From Spirochaetia bacterium (GTDB lineage: Bacteria > Spirochaetota > Spirochaetia > Sphaerochaetales > Sphaerochaetaceae), in the NCBI GenBank assembly GCA_009930325.1, contig RZYO01000001.1:1-64000 (forward strand): a stretch of 64,000 nucleotides of DNA. Direction: 5' to 3'. Both the position numbers and the translations under genes were made by a program. The notes under the pieces were generated by a model. That model did no database searches, had not been told where the DNA came from, and worked only from the letters and a program-made list of their open reading frames with translations. Every line of letters begins with the position of its first letter. The first letter of the stretch is position 1. Shown in pieces: positions 1 to 12,219 of the stretch.

Positions 1-99
1 ATCTATTCGGTCGTTTTAGCAATATCTATTCGGTCGTTTTAGCAATATCTATTCGGTCGTTTTAGCAATATCTATTCGGTCGTTTTAGCAATATCTATT
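1..99. repeat. 23-bp tandem direct repeat, four copies plus a partial one
   Basis: Four identical head-to-tail copies start at 1, 24, 47 and 70, and a partial fifth begins at 93. The unit starts ATCTATTCGG and ends TTTTAGCAAT. The array touches the left edge, so the true copy number is unknown. No spacer separates the units, so this is not a CRISPR. The length and perfect phase resemble plasmid iterons or a minisatellite, but no replication gene is visible beside it. Confidence 0.95.
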
Positions 100-493
100 T
101 AAAATACTTTTGCTTATTAATGAGCCAAAATAGATTAACGATTTTATATTATTGAATGAGTTTTTCTTCAATTAACAAAAACATAAAATCAAATAGTTTA
201 TAATTTTTTGTAAAGTTATTTATAAAAGTTTACAAAATATTGCAATCTTTTAATCAATAGTTTACAAATATTTGTAAACTATTAAACAAAACGAATCATG
301 ACACTTAGACAATATTATACCAATTAGTACAAATTAAAGTTCCATTTAAATATTAACAAATCTTTAATGAATTCAAAAAATATCTACATTATTCATATAA
401 GAAATCTCCCTTTTATAGTTCAAAAAGGAAGATTAACATTATTATTTTGATAGTTTTACAAATAGCTCTTTAGTGATAAATAATTTATATTTA
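100..493. other. Gene-free AT-rich stretch with palindromes
   Basis: No convincing coding frame is present. The stretch holds a perfect 28-bp palindrome at 256-283 and an inverted pair of related half-sites (TTTGTAAA at 207-214 and TTTACAAA at 229-236). It lies downstream of the leftward array that ends at 494. I see no clear rho-independent terminator for that array. Confidence 0.6.
256..283. promoter_or_regulatory. Perfect 28-bp palindrome with TTTACAAA/TTTGTAAA half-sites
   Basis: The two 14-bp arms are exact reverse complements with no spacer, centred between 269 and 270. The core TTTACAAATATTTGTAAA recurs as separated half-sites at 207-214 and 229-236. This looks like an operator cluster for a dimeric DNA-binding protein, or a cruciform element. 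Its target gene is not evident and may lie left of the window. Confidence 0.5.
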
Positions 494-1090
494 TCATTCT
501 TCAAACCAGGGCAAGGCTCTTAATCTAGCATAGTTATAATATTTTATAAGTTCAAAATTTATATAATCCAAATCAAATTCATCAATATCATATTCTCCAC
601 CAACCCACATTAACATTTCTTCACGTTCTTGGGATTCTTCATCACTAATACATTCTAAGAAATGGGTGAATCCATATGAACCACCAACATCTTCTGGGGG
701 ACAAGCTCTCTCTCCCTTAATACATTCCAATTCATAAGGATAATCAGAATTATAATTACTATTTATTAATGTAATTTCATGTTCCCACCCATCTCCAAAG
801 TCATATTCGTATGTTATCTTTTGGTTTTTTCTGCTAATGAATTGATTAAGTCGAACAAGTCTTGAATCTTTTACTTCTTCAAAATCATCAATATATTCAT
901 TAAATTCACTATATTTTTTCTTTTTTATTACAAATTGATAAAGATGCGATTGCTCCCAACCCATAACTATTTGAACTACATCATGAAGTCTATCAAGTGA
1001 TATATCGTACGGGACAACAAATTCTCTCCAAATCTTTGGTTCAACATCCAACAATTCAATTCTTAATAAATAATATTTTGCTTCACCCAT
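494..1090 (-). CDS. Plasmid pRiA4b ORF-3-like family protein
   Basis: A 198-aa protein of the pRiA4b ORF-3-like family (the fold also called IS1096 TnpR-like), whose biochemical role is unknown. The family pattern is clear: an N-terminal strand ending in PKIWREFVVP (about 18-27), an LDRLHDVVQ helix (32-40), the signature YDFGDGWEH (96-104), and ACPPEDVGG (129-137). It is the last gene of a leftward array. An AAGGA site precedes the ATG by about 11 bases. The next gene upstream (1113-1835) is a diverged copy of the same family. Family membership is strong; function is not assigned. Confidence 0.9.
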   Translation of the reverse strand: MGEAKYYLLRIELLDVEPKIWREFVVPYDISLDRLHDVVQIVMGWEQSHLYQFVIKKKKYSEFNEYIDDFEEVKDSRLVRLNQFISRKNQKITYEYDFGDGWEHEITLINSNYNSDYPYELECIKGERACPPEDVGGSYGFTHFLECISDEESQEREEMLMWVGGEYDIDEFDLDYINFELIKYYNYARLRALPWFEE

Positions 1091-1112
1091 AACACATTTA
1101 TCCTTTTATAAT

Positions 1113-1835
1113 TTATTTGTTCAATTCTTGTAATTTTTGGTCAACTAACTTCTCAGCTTCCTTTTTAATTATTTCATCAAATAATTCACCTATTATCTCA
1201 GACTCTTCTTTATTATCATACCAAGAAAGATCTCTATCACGTGCCCAATCACAATATTTATCTAAGAAAAAATTATAACTTGCTTTATTAAAAAAAGATA
1301 TATTAAAATTATCACCTAATAGCTTTCGTGCAGTTTCATATAATGGGGAATTAGGCTTATTATAGGCATCACTTAATTCATAAAAATGCTCAAGTTTCTT
1401 TATCATAGCTGGTGGTGAACTATTAGCACCTCCAATACAGCATATTTCCTTCGGTGTTTCATTATAAAATCTTGTTTTTTCAACAAATATTCCCAATTCC
1501 CAATAATCATAATACATTATAAATCTTGATCTCTCTTTTGTTAACATATTTAATCTAAATAAAGAAATATTAAAACTATTATCCTCATTTGCATCTTTCA
1601 AATTTTCATTATCAAAATCCTCATTATCATAAGATCTATAATACTTATTCTTTATTTTAAAAGAACATAATTCATACCCTTCCCAATTAAACAATAACAA
1701 AATAACATCACTTAACCTGTCTAAGCTAATATCTTCAGGAACTACAACCCTTCTATAAATTGATGGCTCACTTCCATTTAATTTTATATTTAATAATGTA
1801 TAGTCATAATTAAAATCTTGTTCATCTACTTCCAT
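1113..1835 (-). CDS. Diverged pRiA4b ORF-3-like protein
   Basis: About 240 aa. The N-terminal half follows the ORF-3-like pattern (EPSIYRRVVVPEDISLDRL, then an LFNWEGYELCSFKI stretch), and a CIGG...SPPA stretch matches the family's Cys-Pro-Pro segment. The hallmark DFGDGWEH is replaced by YDYWELGIF, so the conserved acidic/aromatic core is lost. The chosen ATG at 1835 has GGAG five bases upstream; a GTG two codons earlier would place that GGAG inside the start. The gene starts inside the end of the upstream gene (overlap about 14 bases), implying translational coupling. It is probably a duplicate of the 494-1090 gene under relaxed or changed selection. Confidence 0.75.
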   Translation of the reverse strand: MEVDEQDFNYDYTLLNIKLNGSEPSIYRRVVVPEDISLDRLSDVILLLFNWEGYELCSFKIKNKYYRSYDNEDFDNENLKDANEDNSFNISLFRLNMLTKERSRFIMYYDYWELGIFVEKTRFYNETPKEICCIGGANSSPPAMIKKLEHFYELSDAYNKPNSPLYETARKLLGDNFNISFFNKASYNFFLDKYCDWARDRDLSWYDNKEESEIIGELFDEIIKKEAEKLVDQKLQELNK

Positions 1836-3177
1836 ATTCACTCCAGAATTTTTTTCTATTTATATATTTATACTCTACTTTCTCTAAAAAAGCTTCATGG
1901 ATTATATATGATTTCCAATCAACTATTTTTGGAGAAAGATTATCTAATATTTTCAAATAATTTGCAGCCTCACTGTATTTATTACTCTTTGCCTTTTCTA
2001 AAATCAATAATATTTCCTTTCTGTAAAGAAAAACAATAGGTAAATATATATTAGCAGTTAATAATATTTCTATAATTTTTACTATTTGTTTATCACTTAA
2101 AGTTTTTATAACGTCATAATTCATTATTGAATACTTTTCCGCTTCTTCTTTATCTACTGATGCTAAAAAATCAATCCTCTCAATAAAATTTAAGATACTT
2201 TTATCATTTAATATTTCATTTACTTGATTAGTTATTAGTTGTTCTCTTATATCTTGAGAGATATAATTTGATAAATAGTTTAATGTATAAATTGTTGGAT
2301 TCGAAGAAAAAATTCTTTTTGCTATTCTTCTTTGATTATCTATATCATTTAACTTTGTATAAATGATTAATAACTGTTGATTTTTTTTATTATTATTGTA
2401 ATCACTTTCACTATTAGTATTTATCAATATTTCTAGTGCCTGAGTATATTTACCCTCTTTTATATATACATCAGCAATATCATAAACAGAAATATTAAAA
2501 GAATGGGACAGAATAGCCATTTTTTTAAATAAAGTCCCATCTGGTATATTTCTTGATAAAGAAAGGAGAGAAGTATAATAATACCAACTATTTTCATCTA
2601 TATTTTTTTCTATTTCATTATATAAAAGTCTAAGAACTTCTCCATTAAAAAACTTATTTGCATTTTTTATTATAGAAACAGCACTAGATTCATCTAATTT
2701 AAAAAGTTCTAGAATTTTATTTATAACAAAAGACACATTTTCACTTAAAATAGCATATTCGATAAACATATTGTAAGCTCTATATGAATAATGATCCCAA
2801 TCAAAAATTTCGTAATTACAATAATCATTTAAATAATCTTTACTATCATCACAAAAATCATCAGAACAAGGAAGCATTTGAATAAGTTCCTCTTTATGCT
2901 GAAAAAATTTCATTATTAAATCAATTGCTATATAGAAATCAGTAACTAATAATTTAATATCATCAAAATAACTAGTTAATGTATCTGTTATTATTATTTC
3001 ATTTTCAACATCAAAATCATCAAAATAAGAATATAATTCATCAATTTTAACATCATCACTAATAAAGTGTGTTTCTACAAATTCTTTAAAGCTTTTATCT
3101 TGCTCACTATAATTTAAAATTATATATTTGAGAGTATCATATGATAATTTATTTAATTTTTTATTAAATTCTTCCAT
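1822..3177 (-). CDS. DUF6880-like helical repeat protein, paralog C
   Basis: A 451-aa, strongly helical cytoplasmic protein with no signal peptide or membrane segment. Its C-terminus carries the block shared by three neighbouring paralogs: FLYRKEILLILEKA, YSEAANYLKIL, LSPKIVDWKSY, then a basic RKKFW end. This block resembles the C-terminus of the DUF6880 family from memory of that family; no enzymatic motif is seen. The middle resembles TPR-like helical pairs (for example YIKEGKYTQALEIL). AAGGA precedes the ATG. It lies 278 bases downstream of paralog B and overlaps the following ORF-3-like gene. Function unknown; a scaffold or interaction role is only a guess. Confidence 0.7.
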   Translation of the reverse strand: MEEFNKKLNKLSYDTLKYIILNYSEQDKSFKEFVETHFISDDVKIDELYSYFDDFDVENEIIITDTLTSYFDDIKLLVTDFYIAIDLIMKFFQHKEELIQMLPCSDDFCDDSKDYLNDYCNYEIFDWDHYSYRAYNMFIEYAILSENVSFVINKILELFKLDESSAVSIIKNANKFFNGEVLRLLYNEIEKNIDENSWYYYTSLLSLSRNIPDGTLFKKMAILSHSFNISVYDIADVYIKEGKYTQALEILINTNSESDYNNNKKNQQLLIIYTKLNDIDNQRRIAKRIFSSNPTIYTLNYLSNYISQDIREQLITNQVNEILNDKSILNFIERIDFLASVDKEEAEKYSIMNYDVIKTLSDKQIVKIIEILLTANIYLPIVFLYRKEILLILEKAKSNKYSEAANYLKILDNLSPKIVDWKSYIIHEAFLEKVEYKYINRKKFWSEYGSR

Positions 3178-3455
3178 CTAAATTGTTCCTTCATTATTCC
3201 TTCGTATTATTAAAAAAATTTATTTATTCACCATGTAAATTATTTTATTAATTACGAACCACTTCTTTAGCTTGTTACTTTTTAAAAAATACTCAACTAT
3301 CAACTAATACATTATTTTCATTTAAATTGTAATACTTTAATAAGTAAATAAAATATTTACTAGAAGCTTATAAGAATTAAATATAAATTCTTAATAATTA
3401 AGTTTATACTGTGTTATGTTTTATAGCTAATTGATTAAATAAATAGACATCTTCA

Positions 3456-4781
3456 TTAATCTTTTTTTAAATAATTATATCTATACCAGAATTTTTTATT
3501 TTTTTTATATTTTATCATTAACATATTTAAAAAAATTTTATGATTATCATATTTCAAGTAATCAGATATTTCTTTTGACAAATCATCTAATTTTATTAAT
3601 TTATTTACGGCAATCTCATTCATATGTTCTTCAACTTTATGAGAGTCTAAAATTTCTAATAATTGCCTTCTATATATTAGTGAAATGCAAAGTTTATTAT
3701 TACTTTCAAATAATTTATCGAGAATTAGAGTATCTTCAATATCCCATATATTAAAATCATTAACATGTTTTAAACAATATTCATTAACTTCTTCAATTTT
3801 ATTCACATCAAACATAAATAAAATATTATTCAACAAATTAGTTTTTTCTTCACTTTTTAATAATTCCAAAATCTTATTATCAATTAGGAACTGTCTTTTA
3901 TTTTCTCCAATAATACTGAGCAGAAGATTTAAATTATCTATTGAAGGATATTGATAATATAATTTTGTAACTACATCTATTTTATTAGGAACATCACCTT
4001 GTGCTTCATAGATTCTGTAAAATAAATTCAATGAGAAGCTGTCATAATTATTTAAAGTTTTTAGTATCCTTAATGCACTAACATAATCATTAGAGTCATA
4101 ATAGACATTTGCTAATTTATCTACTCCATTATAATATCTTCTACTTTCAATTCTTTGATTAAACTGCTCAAATAAAATAGGGTCAGGAAGTTGTCTAAAT
4201 AATTCAGTCATTATAATAATTTTATATTGAGGTGGTTTTATATTTTTAATTTCAGTTGTATAAACTTTTATCAGATATTGAATATCCTCTTTATTTATAA
4301 AATCGTTCATTTTTTCAAATATGGGTAACATATATTCAAAATTTTTCTTATTTGTTGTTTTATGTAATAAATTAATTACATATTTCTTATCATTACATAT
4401 TGCTCCATTTTCAATAAATAAAATTTTTGCTTTTTCAACAAAAGGATAAAATCCAAATATAGTGGCTTTAGAAGAGTACGTATTTAAATATTCAAAAGAA
4501 ATCAATCTCTTAAAAAATTGATGTATTAATTCAAGAATTTTTTTGGGAGATTTAATAAACAATTCTATTTTATCAAAATAATTCTTTAATTTTTCTTCTG
4601 CTTCATGATTATCGACAAACTCCGTTACATTAAAAAAATTGCATAACCGAGAATAATGAAGCTCTTCATTAGAATAATTTATTTCCAAAAATTTTAAAAA
4701 ATCACTATCTTTTTTTGAATATTCTATTAATGCTTTTTCCTTTAAATCTACATCTAAAGCCTTTATTTTTTTTTCATCCAT
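3456..4781 (-). CDS. DUF6880-like helical repeat protein, paralog B
   Basis: A 441-aa helical protein, recognisably homologous to the genes at 1822-3177 and 4806-6128 over its whole length. All share an N-terminal 'K-LD..KF..FI/LE..F' type helix, a central TPR-like YDSNDYVSALRILK pair, and a C-terminal LIYRRQLLEILDS...KKFW block. It is the most diverged of the three in the C-terminal block, where the AA.YL core is weakened and the extreme end is YNYLKKD. It starts 24 bases after the paralog A stop, consistent with co-transcription. No catalytic motif is seen. Confidence 0.68.
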   Translation of the reverse strand: MDEKKIKALDVDLKEKALIEYSKKDSDFLKFLEINYSNEELHYSRLCNFFNVTEFVDNHEAEEKLKNYFDKIELFIKSPKKILELIHQFFKRLISFEYLNTYSSKATIFGFYPFVEKAKILFIENGAICNDKKYVINLLHKTTNKKNFEYMLPIFEKMNDFINKEDIQYLIKVYTTEIKNIKPPQYKIIIMTELFRQLPDPILFEQFNQRIESRRYYNGVDKLANVYYDSNDYVSALRILKTLNNYDSFSLNLFYRIYEAQGDVPNKIDVVTKLYYQYPSIDNLNLLLSIIGENKRQFLIDNKILELLKSEEKTNLLNNILFMFDVNKIEEVNEYCLKHVNDFNIWDIEDTLILDKLFESNNKLCISLIYRRQLLEILDSHKVEEHMNEIAVNKLIKLDDLSKEISDYLKYDNHKIFLNMLMIKYKKNKKFWYRYNYLKKD

Positions 4782-4805
4782 TTGTTTTTCAACCTTTAAA
4801 ATATG

Positions 4806-6128
4806 TCAAATTAACCCACATAAACCCCAAAATGATTTCTTCCTTGAATGTTTTAGTCTAATCTCAGTAAGAAATTCTTCATGATTCATAATATCTTTCC
4901 AATCATCAATATTATTACTTAAGAAACTTAACTCAAGTAAATATGAAGCACCATATTTATATGCTTTATAGTTTGCATTATTTAAAATTTCCAACAAGAG
5001 ATCTCTATATAGCAAAGTAGCAACTAAATACTTATTATTGTTTTTAAAATCATCAATAATATCATGTATATAGTATTCTCTTAAATCTTCTATTTTATCT
5101 ATATTTTTAAAGAAATACTTTTCAGCTGCATCAACTCTATCTACATCTAAAAGAAACCTTATATTTTCTTTATAAGAATTAACATTTCCCCCATTATAAA
5201 AAGATTCTATTTTCTTATTAATCAAATCATCTCTTGATTCATTAATTGTTGATTTCATTAATAGATCAAGATTTTCAACAGTTGCACTTTTATCAAATAA
5301 CTCTTTAGCAGTATTATATACTTCTTCTCCATTCCCCAACTTTTCATATATCCTATTCAATAATTCATTTTTTTCATTTTCTTGGTGTATATAACTTGGA
5401 TTAAACAACTTTGCTTTTTCTAAAGCAACATCATATTTTTTTTCATTAAAATAAACTTTAGCAATATCTAAATAAGAAATACTAGAATTTATTTTATAAG
5501 AAGAATATTTTTCATAAAGTTCTCCATCATGTATTTCTTTAGCAAGATCTACAATTAAACAATAATCTTTATATTCTTGTTTCTCTATATCACATAATAG
5601 CTTTGATATAAGTAGTCTAATTTGAGAAGCACTTAATATATTATTAATATTTGAAGTAATTGAATAATTATAAGATATTCCTCCAATTTCAAAAAACTCA
5701 ATAAGTTTTTCAATCACATAATCTTTATCTTCACACTCTTTTAGAGCTTTCTTAAATAAAGATATTGCATCGTATAAATAGTACTCATAATCTTCATCAT
5801 GGTAAGAATCTGTTTGATCTATTATTTCGGTTATTATTTCTTCTGAATTAAAAAATTGAAATAATAAGAAAATAGCATCTTTAGGAGATTTAATAAATAA
5901 TTCAATATCAATAAAAAAAGATTCTAAAGTAGCATTTATTGTATATTTAGTTTCACTATCAATTTCTTTAATAGTAGATAACAATCTATTATAATTATCA
6001 TCTTTCTCTAAAAATGAGTTATCAATAAATTTTCTAAAGTCTTCATTAATATCATAATAATCAACTATGATATTATTTAACTTATCCCTAGTTAGTTTTT
6101 CTAATTTTTCTTTTATACTTTTTTCCAT
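4806..6128 (-). CDS. DUF6880-like helical repeat protein, paralog A (first gene of array)
   Basis: A 440-aa protein and the promoter-proximal member of three tandem paralogs. Its C-terminal block (LLYRDLLLEILNNA, YKYGASYLLEL, then RKKSFW near the end) is the clearest match to the DUF6880-type C-terminus. A TPR-like helix pair, YFNEKKYDVALEKAKLF, lies mid-protein. The ATG at 6128 has AAAGG a few bases upstream. The 5-gene array (three of these plus two ORF-3-like proteins) is unbroken by genes on the other strand. The repeated duplication of a large unknown protein argues for diversifying selection, for example on a binding partner. Confidence 0.7.
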   Translation of the reverse strand: MEKSIKEKLEKLTRDKLNNIIVDYYDINEDFRKFIDNSFLEKDDNYNRLLSTIKEIDSETKYTINATLESFFIDIELFIKSPKDAIFLLFQFFNSEEIITEIIDQTDSYHDEDYEYYLYDAISLFKKALKECEDKDYVIEKLIEFFEIGGISYNYSITSNINNILSASQIRLLISKLLCDIEKQEYKDYCLIVDLAKEIHDGELYEKYSSYKINSSISYLDIAKVYFNEKKYDVALEKAKLFNPSYIHQENEKNELLNRIYEKLGNGEEVYNTAKELFDKSATVENLDLLMKSTINESRDDLINKKIESFYNGGNVNSYKENIRFLLDVDRVDAAEKYFFKNIDKIEDLREYYIHDIIDDFKNNNKYLVATLLYRDLLLEILNNANYKAYKYGASYLLELSFLSNNIDDWKDIMNHEEFLTEIRLKHSRKKSFWGLCGLI

Positions 6129-6204
6129 AAATTACCTTTAACATATAATATGATGTGATCTTAAAATTAACAATTTAAATATAAGAATTTTTGTAATTAT
6201 TAGA

Positions 6205-6238
6205 TAAGAAAAAAGATGCCCCGATTATTGAGACATCT
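6205..6238 (-). terminator. Rho-independent terminator of the nucleosidase gene
   Basis: Read on the minus strand, a 9-bp stem (AGATGTCTC with GGGGCATCT, two G-U pairs) encloses a 7-base loop and is followed by a run of T. It lies just past the stop of the mtnN-like gene at 6258 and insulates it from the downstream array. Confidence 0.85.
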
Positions 6239-6257
6239 CATTTAAATATAATTAAAA

Positions 6258-7046
6258 TTACATTGATTTAACCATTTCTTGAACAATTTTACCTGAATTA
6301 TCAGCAACAACAACCCACCATTGTTCATATGTTTCATGAGCTACGCCATCTGCTTTATCACTCATACCTCTAATTACTACAAAGGGAATACCATATTGAG
6401 AGGCTACATACCCAACAGAAGCTCCTTCCATTTCTACACAGAGAGCACCTAATTCATTAGAAAGATATTCAACTTTTTTAGCACTAGCAACAAACTGATC
6501 CCCTGTTGCAACTAAACCTTTTAATACATCTTGATCTTTACATACTTTTAGTGCTGCATTATAAGCTTTATCTACTAAAATTGGATCAGCTTTTATTTTT
6601 ACTTCTGATACAAAATCTGTCCCTAGTTCAATCTTTTCATCAGTTTGATATCCATAATCATGGAACATAACTTCAGTTGAGATTACAACATCAGCTATAC
6701 TTAATTTTTCTGAAACACTTCCTGCAATACCAGTAAAGATAATAGATGAAACATTAAATTCATGAATAAGAATTGCTGTTCCTGCAGCAGATAAACTTTT
6801 ACCAACACCTGCTTTACAGATAACCACATCTTTTCCTTCAAGTGTTCCAATATTATATACAACACCACCTACTTCTTTTGTTGATGTTACATCAGCAATT
6901 GAAAGTAAATAATTAACTTCAGAATCCATTGCACTTATAATACCTATTGGACTCTTTTGAGCTTTTGCACCTTCTATTTGTCCTTGAGCAAATAGACTTC
7001 CTAAAAAAACAGAACACATCATTAAAATAACAATAATTTTTTTCAT
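6258..7046 (-). CDS. mtnN: Secreted 5'-methylthioadenosine/S-adenosylhomocysteine nucleosidase
   Basis: A 262-aa enzyme that hydrolyses methylthioadenosine and S-adenosylhomocysteine to adenine plus the thioribose sugar. Residues 1-20 form a signal peptide ending SLFA-QG, so the enzyme acts outside the cytoplasm. The catalytic residues match the family: Glu43 in AMDSEV (Glu12 of the E. coli enzyme) and Asp230 in RGMSDKAD (Asp197). The EMEGAS substrate loop and the GTGIAGS-type phosphorylase-fold glycine loop (here FTGIAGS) are present. The start at 7046 was chosen because GGAG lies seven bases upstream and the signal peptide begins there; an upstream in-frame Met would bury it. Exported homologs are known in Borrelia. 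It is a single-gene unit with its own terminator. Confidence 0.93.
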   Translation of the reverse strand: MKKIIVILMMCSVFLGSLFAQGQIEGAKAQKSPIGIISAMDSEVNYLLSIADVTSTKEVGGVVYNIGTLEGKDVVICKAGVGKSLSAAGTAILIHEFNVSSIIFTGIAGSVSEKLSIADVVISTEVMFHDYGYQTDEKIELGTDFVSEVKIKADPILVDKAYNAALKVCKDQDVLKGLVATGDQFVASAKKVEYLSNELGALCVEMEGASVGYVASQYGIPFVVIRGMSDKADGVAHETYEQWWVVVADNSGKIVQEMVKSM

Positions 7047-7455
7047 TTTAATACTCCAAAATTTTTTTACAGTATTTATAATTATTAAAGAAAAGTACAC
7101 ACAATTTTTTATTTTATTTTTTAAAATAACCATTTTCTATTAACTAAATAAACAATAATTTCTAATTATAGAAATAGTAAAAACATTTTTTATAATTTAA
7201 GAATATAAAAATTACAGCCTTATATAGTCGGTGTGAATAATAAAGTATGAACGAAGGCAAAAATGTAAAGTATTACAACGGTTTAAAAAAAATTAAGCAT
7301 GGATTAAGTTAAACAAAAAATATATTCCTTTGATTTATATTTAATACATAAGAATATTATAAAAACCTTTTCACTATTTCTTTGGCAAATACAAAAATAT
7401 AATTTTTTAGATATTATTATATATAAAAAATAGCAATATTAATAAAAAAAAATAA
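7047..7455. other. AT-rich intergenic stretch, nothing recognised
   Basis: This 409-base gap must contain the promoter of the leftward mtnN gene and the end of the ATPase/RloB transcript. I see no RNA gene, repeat or clear hairpin. Confidence 0.5.
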
Positions 7456-8034
7456 TTATATATGGAGGTATTCTTCTAATCTATTAAATAGTACTAATGC
7501 AAAATCACATTTTAAAGGGATTTTTGGGTCAGCTTGCCTTTTTTTTAAATTTTTCAAACTTAAAGTATTTATTTCAATAGGAAGGCTCCCTTTCGAATAT
7601 TTTTGAATATTTTTTTTATATTCTGGTAAATAATCTCTACTATGTAATGGTGTTTTAAAATGTGATTTTCCACAACAAAAAGCTATCCACTTAGTTAATA
7701 TCTCATCATCCATGTGCATAATTAGAAAATCTTCATAATTCATATAAGAAAACAAAAAATTGGGAATATTTGATGGCTTTTTCAAATAATTATCCATATC
7801 ATTTGCATCATTTCTTAAATATCTATCTTTATCAACCCAAATCAGAATTTCATCGCGAGGATTATCCTTTTTTACTTTTTTATATTCATTTACAACTATA
7901 GAATATTGACCACCACCAGAGGATTTACCTATAAATTTTACAGGAATTTCCTCCTCTTTTAAAAAGCGATTTAATTCTTGAATATATGCCCTTTCAGAAG
8001 GCCCTTCACATACTATAATTATAATCCGATTCAT
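7456..8034 (-). CDS. rloB: RloB family protein (TOPRIM-like nuclease candidate)
   Basis: A 192-aa protein. It opens with IIIIVCEGPSERAYIQEL, the hallmark RloB start (CEGxxE), and has a DKD motif in LIWVDKDRY near residue 68. These two acidic clusters resemble TOPRIM metal-binding motifs. RloB proteins are coded next to AAA ATPases, often near restriction or anticodon-nuclease loci, and are regarded as phage-defence components. GAGGT precedes the ATG. The gene starts 15 bases after the ATPase stop, so the pair is co-transcribed. The nuclease activity is inference from the motifs. Confidence 0.85.
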   Translation of the reverse strand: MNRIIIIVCEGPSERAYIQELNRFLKEEEIPVKFIGKSSGGGQYSIVVNEYKKVKKDNPRDEILIWVDKDRYLRNDANDMDNYLKKPSNIPNFLFSYMNYEDFLIMHMDDEILTKWIAFCCGKSHFKTPLHSRDYLPEYKKNIQKYSKGSLPIEINTLSLKNLKKRQADPKIPLKCDFALVLFNRLEEYLHI

Positions 8035-8049
8035 TTAAAAATACCTCAA

Positions 8050-9321
8050 TTAAATATAAGGATAAGGAATACCTGATAGTCTTCCTTCAAGATATTGTTT
8101 TCTAAAACTAGTAATATTTCTTATACCTTCATAATCAGAAAATCTTTTTAATATTGTACCCTTTTTTAAAGTCTTTTCAACAACACATAATTCAGATATT
8201 CTCATCATATCATCATCCATTATATCGGTATTATGAGTTGTAAAAATAAGTTGTGCATTATTTTTATTATATCTTTTATCTTTAAATAATCTAACTATTT
8301 CAACAAAAAGAAAAGGATGAAGAGAATTCCCTAATTCATCAATAATTAAAATTTTTCCTTCTTTCAAAATTGATAAAACAATACATAATATACTTGCTAC
8401 TCTTTGTGTCCCTATAGATTCATCATAAAAATCAAATATTACTTCATTTCCATTTATATCTTTGTGAAAAGATTTGATTTGTGTTTCTTTTATTTTGTTT
8501 GTTTTAATATCTCTTGTAAATTCATGATTTTTTCTAAAATCAATCGCTGTTGATTCCTTAATTTCATTTTGTTTTATCTCCATGCGAATTATATCTATAT
8601 CAAGTTTTTTTAATAATGGAATCATTTCATCAAATGCAACTTGAATAGAATTATCTAAATTAGTTTTTGCAAGTTTTTCAAGGCTAAAGGTTAAAGGAAC
8701 ATTATTCGATTGATATACTTCGATATTCCTAGATAGGAAATTATAAGAATTAGATACAAAAGAATTTAATCCTGCATAATTTTTTGCTAGAATCTTTAGG
8801 AAAGGTGTTTGAAAATAATTATCAGAATTCATACATTCTACAGAATAAATAGATTCCAATTTTTCAAATGAATAAGTATCTGTCGTTATGCTATCAAATA
8901 TATGTTTTTCTTTAGTAATTAATATAATATTATCATTTTCTTTTTTTAAATTTTCATATACTATTTCATTCTCATTAAATTTTAATGTATATGAACATTT
9001 AATACCATTATTGACAAAAGCTATTTCAAAAACTATGGGGTTTTCATTGTTATGTATTTTATTCGGTTCAAAATTCTCACAATAATATTTACCTCTTATA
9101 ATTTTTATAAATAAACCAAAAGCTTTAATAATATTCGACTTACCTGAGGCATTTGCCCCATAAAAAGCTAATACAGGGACCATTCTACATTCATTTTCTT
9201 CTATGAATGGATATAAATCCATTTCTTTATAGCCGTTAGGAGCTTTTTTTTCTGCATAATTTAAAGGAATCGTAACATTTAAAATTGATTTATAATTTTC
9301 AATATGAAAAGATAATAACAT
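8050..9321 (-). CDS. rloA: AAA family ATPase, RloA-like (AAA_15/OLD-type)
   Basis: A 423-aa SMC/OLD-like ATPase. The N-terminus LLSFHIENYKSI is the usual start of AAA_15/AAA_21 proteins. Walker A is GANASGKS at about 55-62, Walker B is ILIIDELGNSLHP near 324-336, and a switch TTHNTDIM lies near 361-368. GGAGG precedes the ATG. Paired with RloB, it should form an ATPase plus TOPRIM-like effector module, an architecture shared by several anti-phage systems (OLD, PARIS, Gabija). Membership in a named system cannot be decided from the window. A second, partly broken pair lies at 19514-21408. Confidence 0.88.
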   Translation of the reverse strand: MLLSFHIENYKSILNVTIPLNYAEKKAPNGYKEMDLYPFIEENECRMVPVLAFYGANASGKSNIIKAFGLFIKIIRGKYYCENFEPNKIHNNENPIVFEIAFVNNGIKCSYTLKFNENEIVYENLKKENDNIILITKEKHIFDSITTDTYSFEKLESIYSVECMNSDNYFQTPFLKILAKNYAGLNSFVSNSYNFLSRNIEVYQSNNVPLTFSLEKLAKTNLDNSIQVAFDEMIPLLKKLDIDIIRMEIKQNEIKESTAIDFRKNHEFTRDIKTNKIKETQIKSFHKDINGNEVIFDFYDESIGTQRVASILCIVLSILKEGKILIIDELGNSLHPFLFVEIVRLFKDKRYNKNNAQLIFTTHNTDIMDDDMMRISELCVVEKTLKKGTILKRFSDYEGIRNITSFRKQYLEGRLSGIPYPYI

Positions 9322-9764
9322 TATTTACCCTCCAATATAATTTCTAGTTATATTATCTTTGATAATCTACATATAGTCAAGATAAACATTTTTTTTGTTT
9401 ATATTATATATATTAAGAATTATTTTTTTATACTTGAAAACAAAATATAGGAGCAAATTAACCAATTAATACATATATTTCTATATAAATAATAAATATT
9501 AAAAATCTATAAATTCCTTGATTTGAATATATAGTAAAAATTTTTGTTTATTTTTTATTTGTGACTACTTTTTTTATCTATGCAAATAACACTTTTTATC
9601 TAAACAAGCAATAATAAGATAGGGTAAAACATTTTTTCATAGTTATGAGTAATAACAATATTAACATCAGTTAATAATCTCATTTGATTATTTCACAACA
9701 TAAATAAACAAGTTCAACCCTTAAAAATAAAAGAAATATCAATTTTCCTAATAGATTCTGATAA
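9322..9764. other. AT-rich intergenic stretch between rloA and the abiEi remnant
   Basis: No gene, RNA or repeat is recognised in these 443 bases. The right part may contain further decayed sequence from the AbiEi locus, but no readable homology remains. Confidence 0.5.
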
Positions 9765-10136
9765 TCAAAACGCAAAAACAACCCCTTCCCTAATTTTTGA
9801 AGCTACATATTTATAATGCATGTTATTATAAGTAAAGTTGTTAAATCGGTTATCTGAAGGCACACATATTTCATAATACACTTGAGTTGTTAAACCATAA
9901 TATTCAAATGCGCTATGATGAAAAATATATGCTGAAGAAGAAATTGCACATGCTATTTGATAAGGATTTGCAATTATATCACCTGTTGCTGGATTTACAA
10001 CTGAATAAATATTATTTCTAATTTTCTTTTCTAAATCTTTTTTCATTAAACGATATATAATTGAATATGCTGTTTTTTCATTACCAACCATATTTATTAT
10101 ATCATTTATAGTAAAAACAGGGATTAGTGCTAATTC
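9765..10136 (-). pseudogene. Truncated AbiEi-like antitoxin/regulator remnant
   Basis: The readable frame gives a winged-helix region (PVFTINDIINMVG, then a YRLMKKDL recognition-type helix, then IYSVVNPATGDIIANPYQIA) typical of AbiEi-family type IV antitoxins, and it continues to an HHSAFEYYGLTTQ stretch of the same family. Homology begins upstream of the only in-frame Met (10091) and no ATG or GTG is available before the preceding stop, so the start is lost. The protein stops after about 108 aa from that Met, roughly half the normal length. No AbiEii partner is adjacent. It is best read as a relic of an older abortive-infection locus. Confidence 0.65.
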
Positions 10137-10229
10137 ATTATTAACTTCGTTTGTACAATTGTAATTTTAAATATAAAAATCCTCACTAATGCTTTTTTAA
10201 TTTATATTTGAGTAAATACAAATATGAGT

Positions 10230-10336
10230 TGAAATTAATTTCTCTTCATTCCCCTATTTTTCCCTTGCTTTTATATATTTCTATGTTACAGTAAATTAAA
10301 AGATGAAATTAATTATATAGCTTGAAATTAATTTCA
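10230..10336 (+). promoter_or_regulatory. Triple operator upstream of the SorC-type regulator gene
   Basis: The palindrome TGAAATTAATTTCA occurs at 10323-10336. A near-perfect copy (last base T) is at 10230-10243, and a half-degenerate copy, GAAATTAATTAT, is at 10305-10316. The last site lies directly before the AGGAGG ribosome-binding site, so bound repressor would block transcription or translation. The likely ligand-responsive binder is the SorC-type protein encoded at once downstream (autoregulation), which is inference. Confidence 0.65.
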
Positions 10337-10346
10337 GAGGAGGAAA

Positions 10347-11285
10347 ATGAAAAATTTAGATAATATAAAATACTTATTAGAAATATGTGAACTGTTTTAT
10401 ATTCAAGGAAAAAGCCAAAAAGAGATTTCAGCTATTTTAAATATTTCAAGACCTCAAGTCTCAAGATTTATAGCAAAAGCAAAAGAAGAGAATTTAATTT
10501 CAATAAAATTAAACTATCCAAATATTGAAGAAAACAATTATCAAAATATGATAAGTGAAAAATATAACATCCCTGAGGTTTATATTTATGATATTGGTCA
10601 AGTCGATAATACTGAAGCTATGTCTCTATTAGCCAACGCCTCAAAAGAATTATTCAATATATTAATTAAAAACAATCAAATAGTTGGAATAATGGCAGGT
10701 AGAACTGTTGAAATATTAAGTGAGAAAATAGATAGCTCAAAAAACAGAGGATTAACATTTGTCCCTCTTTGCGGCGGATTAAGCATTAATGGAAAAACTT
10801 GGCAAGCAAACAATATTTGTCAAGAATTTGCAAAAAAAACAAATGGAACATGCTATTTATTAAATGCTCCAAACTATTTTACCAGTGAAGCAACTAAAGT
10901 TGCACTAATGAATGAAGAATCAATAAATGAAGTAATGCAAATGGGCAAACACTGTGATGTTGCTTTGTTAGGAATAGGTTCTGTTTCAACAAATTCAACA
11001 GGTATATTAGCAAGTGGTTTATCGAAAAATGAATTGGAAATACTAAAAAAAGAAGGAGCCGTTGCAAACATCTGTTGTTCCTATATTGATAAGGATGGGA
11101 AAGTAATCAATTCAAGCATTGCAAACAAAATATTAGGTCATTCCATTTTAGATCTAAAACAATCTAAAAAAGTTGCAATAGCAATGGGGGAAGAAAAATT
11201 AGCTGCTATAAAAGCAGTTCTTAAAGGTGAATACGTAGATGTATTTATTACATCTCTTGAAACAGCAAAAAAATTAATAGATTAA
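10347..11285 (+). CDS. SorC/DeoR-family sugar-responsive transcriptional regulator
   Basis: A 312-aa regulator with an N-terminal helix-turn-helix (GKSQKEISAILNISRPQVSRFI, about 21-42) and a SorC-type sugar-binding domain (about 60-310) with the family's IVGIMAGRTVEILSE and FVPLCGG stretches. Such proteins bind phosphorylated sugars and control adjacent catabolic genes. A strong AGGAGG precedes the ATG. It is the first gene of a rightward operon encoding a ribose-type ABC transporter, a TrpA-like lyase and an FGGY kinase. The kinase product would be a natural effector, as in the LsrR/LsrK pair; this is inference. Confidence 0.9.
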   Translation: MKNLDNIKYLLEICELFYIQGKSQKEISAILNISRPQVSRFIAKAKEENLISIKLNYPNIEENNYQNMISEKYNIPEVYIYDIGQVDNTEAMSLLANASKELFNILIKNNQIVGIMAGRTVEILSEKIDSSKNRGLTFVPLCGGLSINGKTWQANNICQEFAKKTNGTCYLLNAPNYFTSEATKVALMNEESINEVMQMGKHCDVALLGIGSVSTNSTGILASGLSKNELEILKKEGAVANICCSYIDKDGKVINSSIANKILGHSILDLKQSKKVAIAMGEEKLAAIKAVLKGEYVDVFITSLETAKKLID

Positions 11286-11304
11286 ACAAAAAGAGGAGAA
11301 AGTT

Positions 11305-12219
11305 ATGAAAAAAAGAAATCTTTTATTAATTATGGCAATGGTTTTATTTATAATACCATCAACACTATTTGCCGGTGGTAATAGTGAAAAGCAAAAACAA
11401 GTATCAATTTGTACTCCATATTTATCATCTGTTACTACAAAACAAATGGTAGAAGATATGGAAGCAAAACTTGTTGAAAATGGATTTACTGTAATAGTAA
11501 ATGATTCAGCTAATGATAATAGCAGATTAGTAAGTGATATTGAAACAAGTGTAGTTTCAGGCTCCAGTGCTATTATTATTGTAAGTGTTGATCCAAAAAT
11601 TTGTGAAACACAAATCAATGAGGCTGCTGATGCTGGAGTTAGTGTATTTGGCTGTGATGCAGGATACATTGATTCAATGCAAATGAATGCTTCAAGTGAT
11701 AACTATCAAATGGGAGAAATGATAAGCTCTTATTTATTTGATAAGATGGATCACAAAGGAACAATCGTACATTTAACACATAGACCACATCCTGGTGTTG
11801 TTCAAAGATCTTATGCAATGGAAGATGTTTTAAAACAAAATCCTGGTATAACTCTAATTAGTGAACATCATGTTGATGTACCAAATCAAATAAATAATTC
11901 AAAAGAAATTGTTGAAAATTTATTAACCACTTACCCAGAAAAAGGAAGTATTGGTGCAATACTATGTGCATGGGATGAACCAGCAATTGGTGCAACACAA
12001 GCATTGCAAGAAGCAGGAAGAGATGAAGTATTTGTAGTAGGTGTTGATGGAAATGAACAAGCTCTAAAATTAATTGAGCAAGGCACTAACTTCAAAGCAA
12101 CATTAGCTCAAGATTTCTTATCAATGGCTGATTTAGTTGCAAATGATGTTACAAAAGTTTTGAATGGTGAAAAAGTAGAAAAAGGCGAGAAATACGTTCC
12201 AGCTCTTTTAATTGATTAA
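11305..12219 (+). CDS. Periplasmic sugar-binding protein (RbsB-like)
   Basis: A 304-aa substrate-binding protein of the periplasmic-binding-protein-like I fold. Residues 1-23 are a signal peptide ending STLFA, followed by GGNSEKQ. There is no lipobox Cys, so it should be soluble in the periplasm. The body has the RbsB pattern: DxNxD-like VNDSANDNSRLV, SDIETSVVSGSSAIIIVSVD, and FVVGVDGNEQALKLI near the C-terminus. AGGAG lies upstream. A strong stem-loop follows the gene, so it is probably expressed above the membrane components. The sugar cannot be deduced. Confidence 0.92.
   Translation: MKKRNLLLIMAMVLFIIPSTLFAGGNSEKQKQVSICTPYLSSVTTKQMVEDMEAKLVENGFTVIVNDSANDNSRLVSDIETSVVSGSSAIIIVSVDPKICETQINEAADAGVSVFGCDAGYIDSMQMNASSDNYQMGEMISSYLFDKMDHKGTIVHLTHRPHPGVVQRSYAMEDVLKQNPGITLISEHHVDVPNQINNSKEIVENLLTTYPEKGSIGAILCAWDEPAIGATQALQEAGRDEVFVVGVDGNEQALKLIEQGTNFKATLAQDFLSMADLVANDVTKVLNGEKVEKGEKYVPALLID

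Follow-up and report, generated by a model that had tools for sequence, protein, structure and literature searches.

The locus described here raises the question of why genes of two families, DUF6880 and pRiA4b ORF-3 (hereafter ORF-3), lie together in one unit, and whether their products act together. The unit was found in a 64,000-nt stretch of spirochaete DNA (the window; contig RZYO01000001.1, positions 1 to 64,000), from an assembly of 413 contigs that is 92% complete and 8% contaminated. It is read leftward on the minus strand, head to tail, from three DUF6880 paralogs, A (4806..6128, 440 aa, the first gene), B (3456..4781, 441 aa) and C (1822..3177, 451 aa), into two ORF-3 paralogs, O2 (1113..1841, 242 aa) and the canonical O1 (494..1090, 198 aa). 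All five open reading frames (ORFs) were intact. The coordinates give a spacing of 24 nt between A and B, 278 nt between B and C and 22 nt between O2 and O1, and C overlaps the start of O2 by 20 nt, or by 14 nt if the ATG at 1835 is the O2 start.

The surroundings of DUF6880 were examined in all 22 class genomes (22/394) with a hit to a spirochaete DUF6880 profile. In several of these genomes the hit is a fragment or a short N-terminal relative; a few very short ORF-3 fragments were left out, as were the hits below threshold in G015 and G013. DUF6880 followed in tandem by ORF-3 was observed in five of the 22, from four families: the window genome (G000), G149, G300, G336 and G499. G149 (L023), which is of the same genus as the window genome, carries one linked copy of each gene. 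The two genes share an ATGA stop/start overlap of 4 nt in G336 (L040), where the pair lies among housekeeping genes, and in G499 (L187), where a contig-edge copy is followed by an overlapping RhuM gene. In G300 (L041) an intact ORF-3 follows a DUF6880 remnant that covers the last 38 profile positions only. Across the phylum, DUF6880 scored above the cut-off in 9/392 genomes and ORF-3 was present in 67/392; seven of the nine DUF6880 genomes carried ORF-3 somewhere and four (G000, G336, G094, G124) within ~1 kb, the two genes being divergent in G094 and G124. The two families are thus neighbours elsewhere, as a preliminary description of the window had supposed. With ~0.2 ORF-3 assumed per ~3-Mb genome, chance alone would place the two genes within 1 kb of each other ~0.005 times in 22 genomes, although the observed cases are related by descent and not independent. 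These results identify a conserved two-gene DUF6880-to-ORF-3 operon that is locally restricted. The translational coupling suggests that the products act together, and the coupling and the kept gene order make a joint function of DUF6880 and ORF-3 likely.

How the window came to hold five genes instead of two was addressed by profile scores and trees. At a DUF6880 (PF21810) cut-off of 27.3 bits, A (55.7 bits, E 5.7e-15) and C (32.2 bits, E 7.7e-8) scored above and B (16.9 bits, E 0.0033) below. Despite this score, B is on sequence grounds a true, diverged paralog of A and C, because an own-genome search with A returned three proteins and no more, A itself, C at 32% and B at 28%, and because A, B, C and the G149 homologue formed one clade in the DUF6880 tree with support of 98/97. 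The end branch of B (2.11) makes it the most diverged of the three. The common C-terminal block that had been pointed out earlier was present in all of them, ending in RKKSFW, NRKKFW and KNKKFW in A, B and C, respectively. A paired with the G149 copy (94/94; 39% identity), and a grouping of A, B and C without G149 was not rejected (p-AU 0.23). Both ORF-3 proteins exceeded the PRiA4_ORF3 (PF07929) cut-off of 26.6 bits, with 201.2 bits for O1 (E 1.3e-59) and 101.8 bits for O2 (E 4.5e-29), and a PF07929 search found no other ORF-3 gene in the window genome. O1 is 35% identical to O2 and 69% identical to the linked G149 copy, to which it is sister with support of 99. In a 65-row ORF-3 tree, built without duplicate loci and without rows that cover <130 profile positions, the ORF-3s of the window, G149 (C19), G336 and G300 fell into one 7-row clade (SH-aLRT 98), which also holds two orphans, a second G149 copy and one from G205. 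The G499 ORF-3 is outside this tree and scored 299 bits on the clade profile. The end branch was 2.1 for O2 versus 0.27 for O1, so the exact place of O2 is unsure. Because the single linked copies of G149 are the orthologues of A and O1, the remaining genes B, C and O2 look lineage-specific, and the simplest reading of the sequences is that an ancestral A-O1 operon would have received B, C and O2 in this lineage. The array of three related paralogs and two ORF-3s, and its origin by expansion, therefore agree with the preliminary description by coordinates, Pfam, own-genome search, synteny and trees. The two-gene module, its expansion in the window and its clade-specific ORF-3 partner are well supported.

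The rates of divergence of the two partners were compared between the window and G149. The same sugar operon lies within ~10 kb of the unit in both genomes (79-92% identity). The nonsynonymous divergence (dN, NG86-type estimate) was 0.59 for A, 0.21 for O1 and 0.05-0.14 for three sugar-operon genes, indicating that A diverges ~3 times faster than O1. The synonymous divergence (dS) was 0.95-1.20 across all compared genes (1.14 for A), close to saturation, which makes the dN/dS test weak. It gives no sign of positive selection, so the diversifying selection proposed earlier was not borne out, and fast divergence alone can be claimed for A.

The genes around DUF6880 were then considered. By reading, defence genes were found in or beside DUF6880 at 9/17 spirochaete loci, a set that omits L014, which nearly duplicates L013, as well as the short or cut DUF6880 loci L191 and L193-L200. 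DUF6880 lies inside type I restriction-modification (RM) operons in G203, G435 and G525 (L024 9655-11049, L189 4133-5359, L190 370-1653), a second association that recurs for the family, and the G300 remnant (L041) is ~3 kb from a type I restriction operon. In G124 and G094 (L013, L014) DUF6880 adjoins a type I-B cas operon; elsewhere it lies near RhuM in G499 and G435 (L187, L188), and near AAA/RloB pairs resembling AbiL in the window and G420 (L042). The window pair (AAA_21 and RloB, 7456-9321) is a close neighbour of the array, yet, as in G420, such AbiL or RloAB pairs form a separate operon outside the unit. A short protein encoded near the array (9765-10091) matches the N-terminal part of AbiEi only. 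In a comparison of neighbour proteins, 105 DUF6880 neighbours matched 303 PADLOC families and 105 control neighbours matched 76; the control consisted of 17 random ORF-3 loci without DUF6880, of 41 eligible, cut to 105 proteins. We take this excess as a lead. An assignment of the unit itself to defence by homology was rejected, as PADLOC and NCBIfam gave no match for the five proteins. RhuM-family genes also occur beside DUF6880 or ORF-3 at L187 729-1805, L058 9111-10157 and L188 2892-3533. In two related Spirochaetes metagenome-assembled genomes an ORF-3-like gene sits within the type I-B cas operon (L013 8269-9039, L014 3058-3828), between cas6b and a DUF6429 gene with cas8 (TM1802), and DUF6880 is divergent beside cas6b.

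Structure models were used to ask what kind of proteins the two partners are. The model of A (pLDDT 83.6, pTM 0.70, from five alignment rows) is an all-helical superhelix like tetratricopeptide repeat (TPR) solenoids, and A also showed a weak sequence match to the solved structure 3urz (E 0.0014). The prediction for DUF6880 is accordingly a TPR-like superhelix, in which no catalytic domain is recognised, and the protein is probably a binding scaffold or receptor. Such matches are common among helical repeats and reveal no function. As to envelope sensing, one of the roles suggested in the preliminary description, no signal or membrane segment was noticed in the five proteins by reading, with no predictor run, and this role was set aside. 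This fold raises the alternative of a cellular regulatory or stress module, in which a ligand or peptide would be sensed by the TPR-like protein, in the manner of Rap and NprR-type regulators, and ORF-3 would mediate the response. NprR and Rap regulators are among the matches to A at Z ~10, although matches of this kind are widespread among helical repeats; the pair in G336 is surrounded by housekeeping genes, and the unit keeps its place near the sugar operon in both same-genus genomes that have it. However, the distribution is patchy for such a module (22/394 class genomes, with no DUF6880 hit in two of the three other genomes of the window genus), DUF6880 diverges fast, and many DUF6880 loci lie among defence genes. 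We therefore regard a regulatory role as somewhat unlikely.

For ORF-3, the O2 model (pLDDT 82, pTM 0.74, 15 rows) had its best match in MM3350 (2i1s, Z 20.9). Next among the listed solved structures came five chains of human SNAPC3, four with Z 8.8-9.4 and the fifth with 7.3, ahead of VANGL1 (6.4) and ubiquitin-like folds (<=6.1). ORF-3 is thus predicted to have the MM3350 fold with a ubiquitin-like core; family and fold are common to MM3350, PF07929 and the window ORF-3s. The match of O2 to SNAPC3 reached Z 9.4 with an rmsd of 3.7 over 134 residues at 15% identity, the identity of the SNAPC3 chains being taken from the structure entries and two papers, not from the chain label. In SNAPC3 (SNAP50), a small nuclear RNA promoter factor (7zx8, 7xur), the region that resembles the predicted O2 fold is the ubiquitin-like one; PMC9758055 describes a ubiquitin-like domain there, and PMC9652321 reports no known homologous structure for SNAP50. 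The likeness is in fold only, and a sequence-profile match is absent.

Compared with other PF07929 members, the DUF6880-coupled ORF-3s form one clade with an extended C-terminus, and within it O2 stands out. The loss of the DFGDGWEH signature from the second ORF-3, stated in the preliminary description, was confirmed: O2 has YDY-gap-WEL at this position, and SPPAM in place of the CPPED block, so that both DFGDxWxH and CPPED are missing. Among 47 columns conserved in >=70% of 36 other ORF-3s, O1 kept 43 and both signatures, and O2 kept 27 and neither. The 20 losses of O2 include three of the four conserved aspartates, the three conserved histidines and the cysteine and acidic pair of CPPED. Most hydrophobic positions are retained in O2, which has an extra C-terminal helix. 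We infer that O2 is a fold-keeping, signature-less subunit. Joined forms of ORF-3 also occur: the 528-aa protein encoded at L066 (5901-7487) is a natural fusion in which ORF-3 is combined with TPR repeats and, at the C-terminus, a SEC-C motif. This parallels the pairing of ORF-3 with a helical-repeat protein. In the 660-750-aa proteins of another family (f8; L072, L073, L078 and other loci) ORF-3 forms the C-terminal part; L073 was the one member scanned, and Pfam matched nothing in its N-terminal part of ~500 aa.

Linkage across phyla, which the preliminary description had named as a sign that would support a system, was sought on plasmids and viral contigs; one profile scan of genome contigs yielded two loci only. 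An annotated ORF-3 lay within 4-6 kb of DUF6880 at 0/15 plasmid loci from Alpha- and Gammaproteobacteria; when PF07929 was run on the 15 whole plasmid records, ORF-3 was found in three, the nearest ~7.5 kb off. DUF6880 scans of viral contigs returned nothing, and DUF6880 was beside ORF-3 at 0/24 viral loci, with an ORF filter that recovered 10/12 plasmid DUF6880s and can miss some. The linkage therefore did not extend to these samples. The alphaproteobacterial plasmid DUF6880 proteins share with those of the window the family (PF21810), the C-terminal block and a length of ~440-480 aa, but they stand alone and form a separate clade (99/99). Plasmid DUF6880 is a lone accessory gene, frequently near toxin-antitoxin (TA) genes and transposases. 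This context, with the overlapping ends of a two-gene operon, could point to the pair itself being a toxin and its antitoxin, and HipA, VapC/CcdB, RES-Xre and HepT-MNT genes are indeed found near several plasmid DUF6880s. However, plasmids are rich in TA genes anyway. ORF-3s of the same clade that have no intact DUF6880 beside them are found in G300 and G205, the second copy of G149 being a further case, and DUF6880 occurs without a neighbouring ORF-3 in many genomes; neither partner thus needs the other adjacent. A TA pair is the least likely of the rivals and, in our view, very improbable.

ORF-3, on the other hand, is a family travelling with mobile DNA, as judged from its reported and observed transposon contexts. 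PMC3942029 reports that pRiA4-like ORFs are carried by 12 members of the ISAzba1 group of transposons. In three Pseudomonas plasmids (L201, L202, L204) ORF-3 is the final gene, separated by 3 nt from the IS66-type transposase before it, an assignment confirmed by NCBIfam for one of them, and in a Klebsiella plasmid it is beside a recombinase and the ISKpn19 transposase. The earlier statement that neither family has a known role is consequently amended for ORF-3, a reported transposon passenger, and stands for DUF6880: no paper on DUF6880, PF07929 or MM3350 was found in the literature collection searched, and a term search of PMC1949818 gave neither ORF3, ORF-3 nor 2i1s. These passengers are homologous to the window ORF-3s, but the window unit has no transposase and shows coupling to DUF6880 instead; no transposase was among the listed ORFs of 1-12000 (nine by Pfam, the rest by reading).

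The passenger habit of ORF-3 allows a purely historical linkage, in which a passenger was captured once beside DUF6880 and inherited, its copies drifting without joint function. The ISAzba1, IS66 and ISKpn19 contexts are consistent with this, as are orphan members of the clade (L045, which adjoins an integrase-core transposase, and L058) and the decay of DUF6880 beside an intact ORF-3 in G300. Against it, the gene order is kept over four families with 4-nt overlaps in two genomes, no tandem pair has a transposase inside it, and in the window five ORFs are intact and the unit has expanded. Linkage by descent alone is therefore doubtful, and we consider it unlikely.

Our preferred reading, tentative and possible rather than probable, is a lineage-expanded DUF6880-ORF-3 operon whose fast-evolving receptor recognises a partner from mobile DNA and recruits or controls a nucleic-acid-binding ORF-3. 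The partner recognised by the helical DUF6880 protein would vary and would most likely come from phage or other mobile DNA, and the helical protein would bring in or control ORF-3. Because of the transposon-passenger contexts and the fold likeness to SNAPC3, the slower-evolving ORF-3 may bind nucleic acid or nucleoprotein. B and C would then be added receptor variants, and O2 a signature-less ORF-3 able to assemble but not to act. Defence, although unproven, is the best single guess for the function. A stronger form appears improbable: an undescribed anti-mobile-DNA system of DUF6880 and ORF-3 that combines a diversifying TPR-like receptor with a transposon-derived, DNA-binding ORF-3 of SNAPC3 ancestry, the window holding duplicated receptors and a signature-less subunit.

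Several results weigh against the receptor reading. A may have diverged fast because constraint on it was relaxed, or the G149 gene may be a hidden paralog of A. Type I RM genes at a few loci account for most of the PADLOC excess, and its model counts are redundant; 8/17 loci, including the G336 pair, are without a recognised defence gene, and PADLOC-DB 2.0.0 models matched none of the five proteins at E<=1. Most ORF-3 genomes lack DUF6880, and ORF-3 therefore has other roles. The SNAPC3 profile PF12251 found no ORF-3 place in 296 genomes, and SNAPC3 was not among the Pfam matches of 38 ORF-3s.

Through this locus, two families of unknown function become open to experiment as a pair: their genes form a coupled operon in which one partner evolves fast and the other slowly. 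G336 and G149 offer natural single-copy versions for biochemistry, and O2, as a natural signature-less ORF-3, suggests which residues matter. If the fold likeness were confirmed, SNAPC3, for which PMC9652321 reports no known homologous structure, would gain a bacterial and transposon relative.

Some further features were observed around the unit and the two families. In the scanned region, three terminator-like stems were found versus 0.8 expected, two of which flank the unit on its own strand: one 3′ of O1 (403..434, minus strand, stem 434-403) and one at the upstream end, between the upstream nucleosidase gene and A (6213..6239, minus strand). L193, L194, L195, L197 and L198 encode proteins of ~170-190 aa whose match to DUF6880 is confined to its N-terminal third. 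The contig opens with 4.3 copies of a 23-bp tandem repeat (1..99). The same array, reversed, also opens contig C12 of this genome (L148 1-121), so the two contigs probably join there; the genes past the array on C12 include those for a DUF4143 ATPase and a HipA-like protein.

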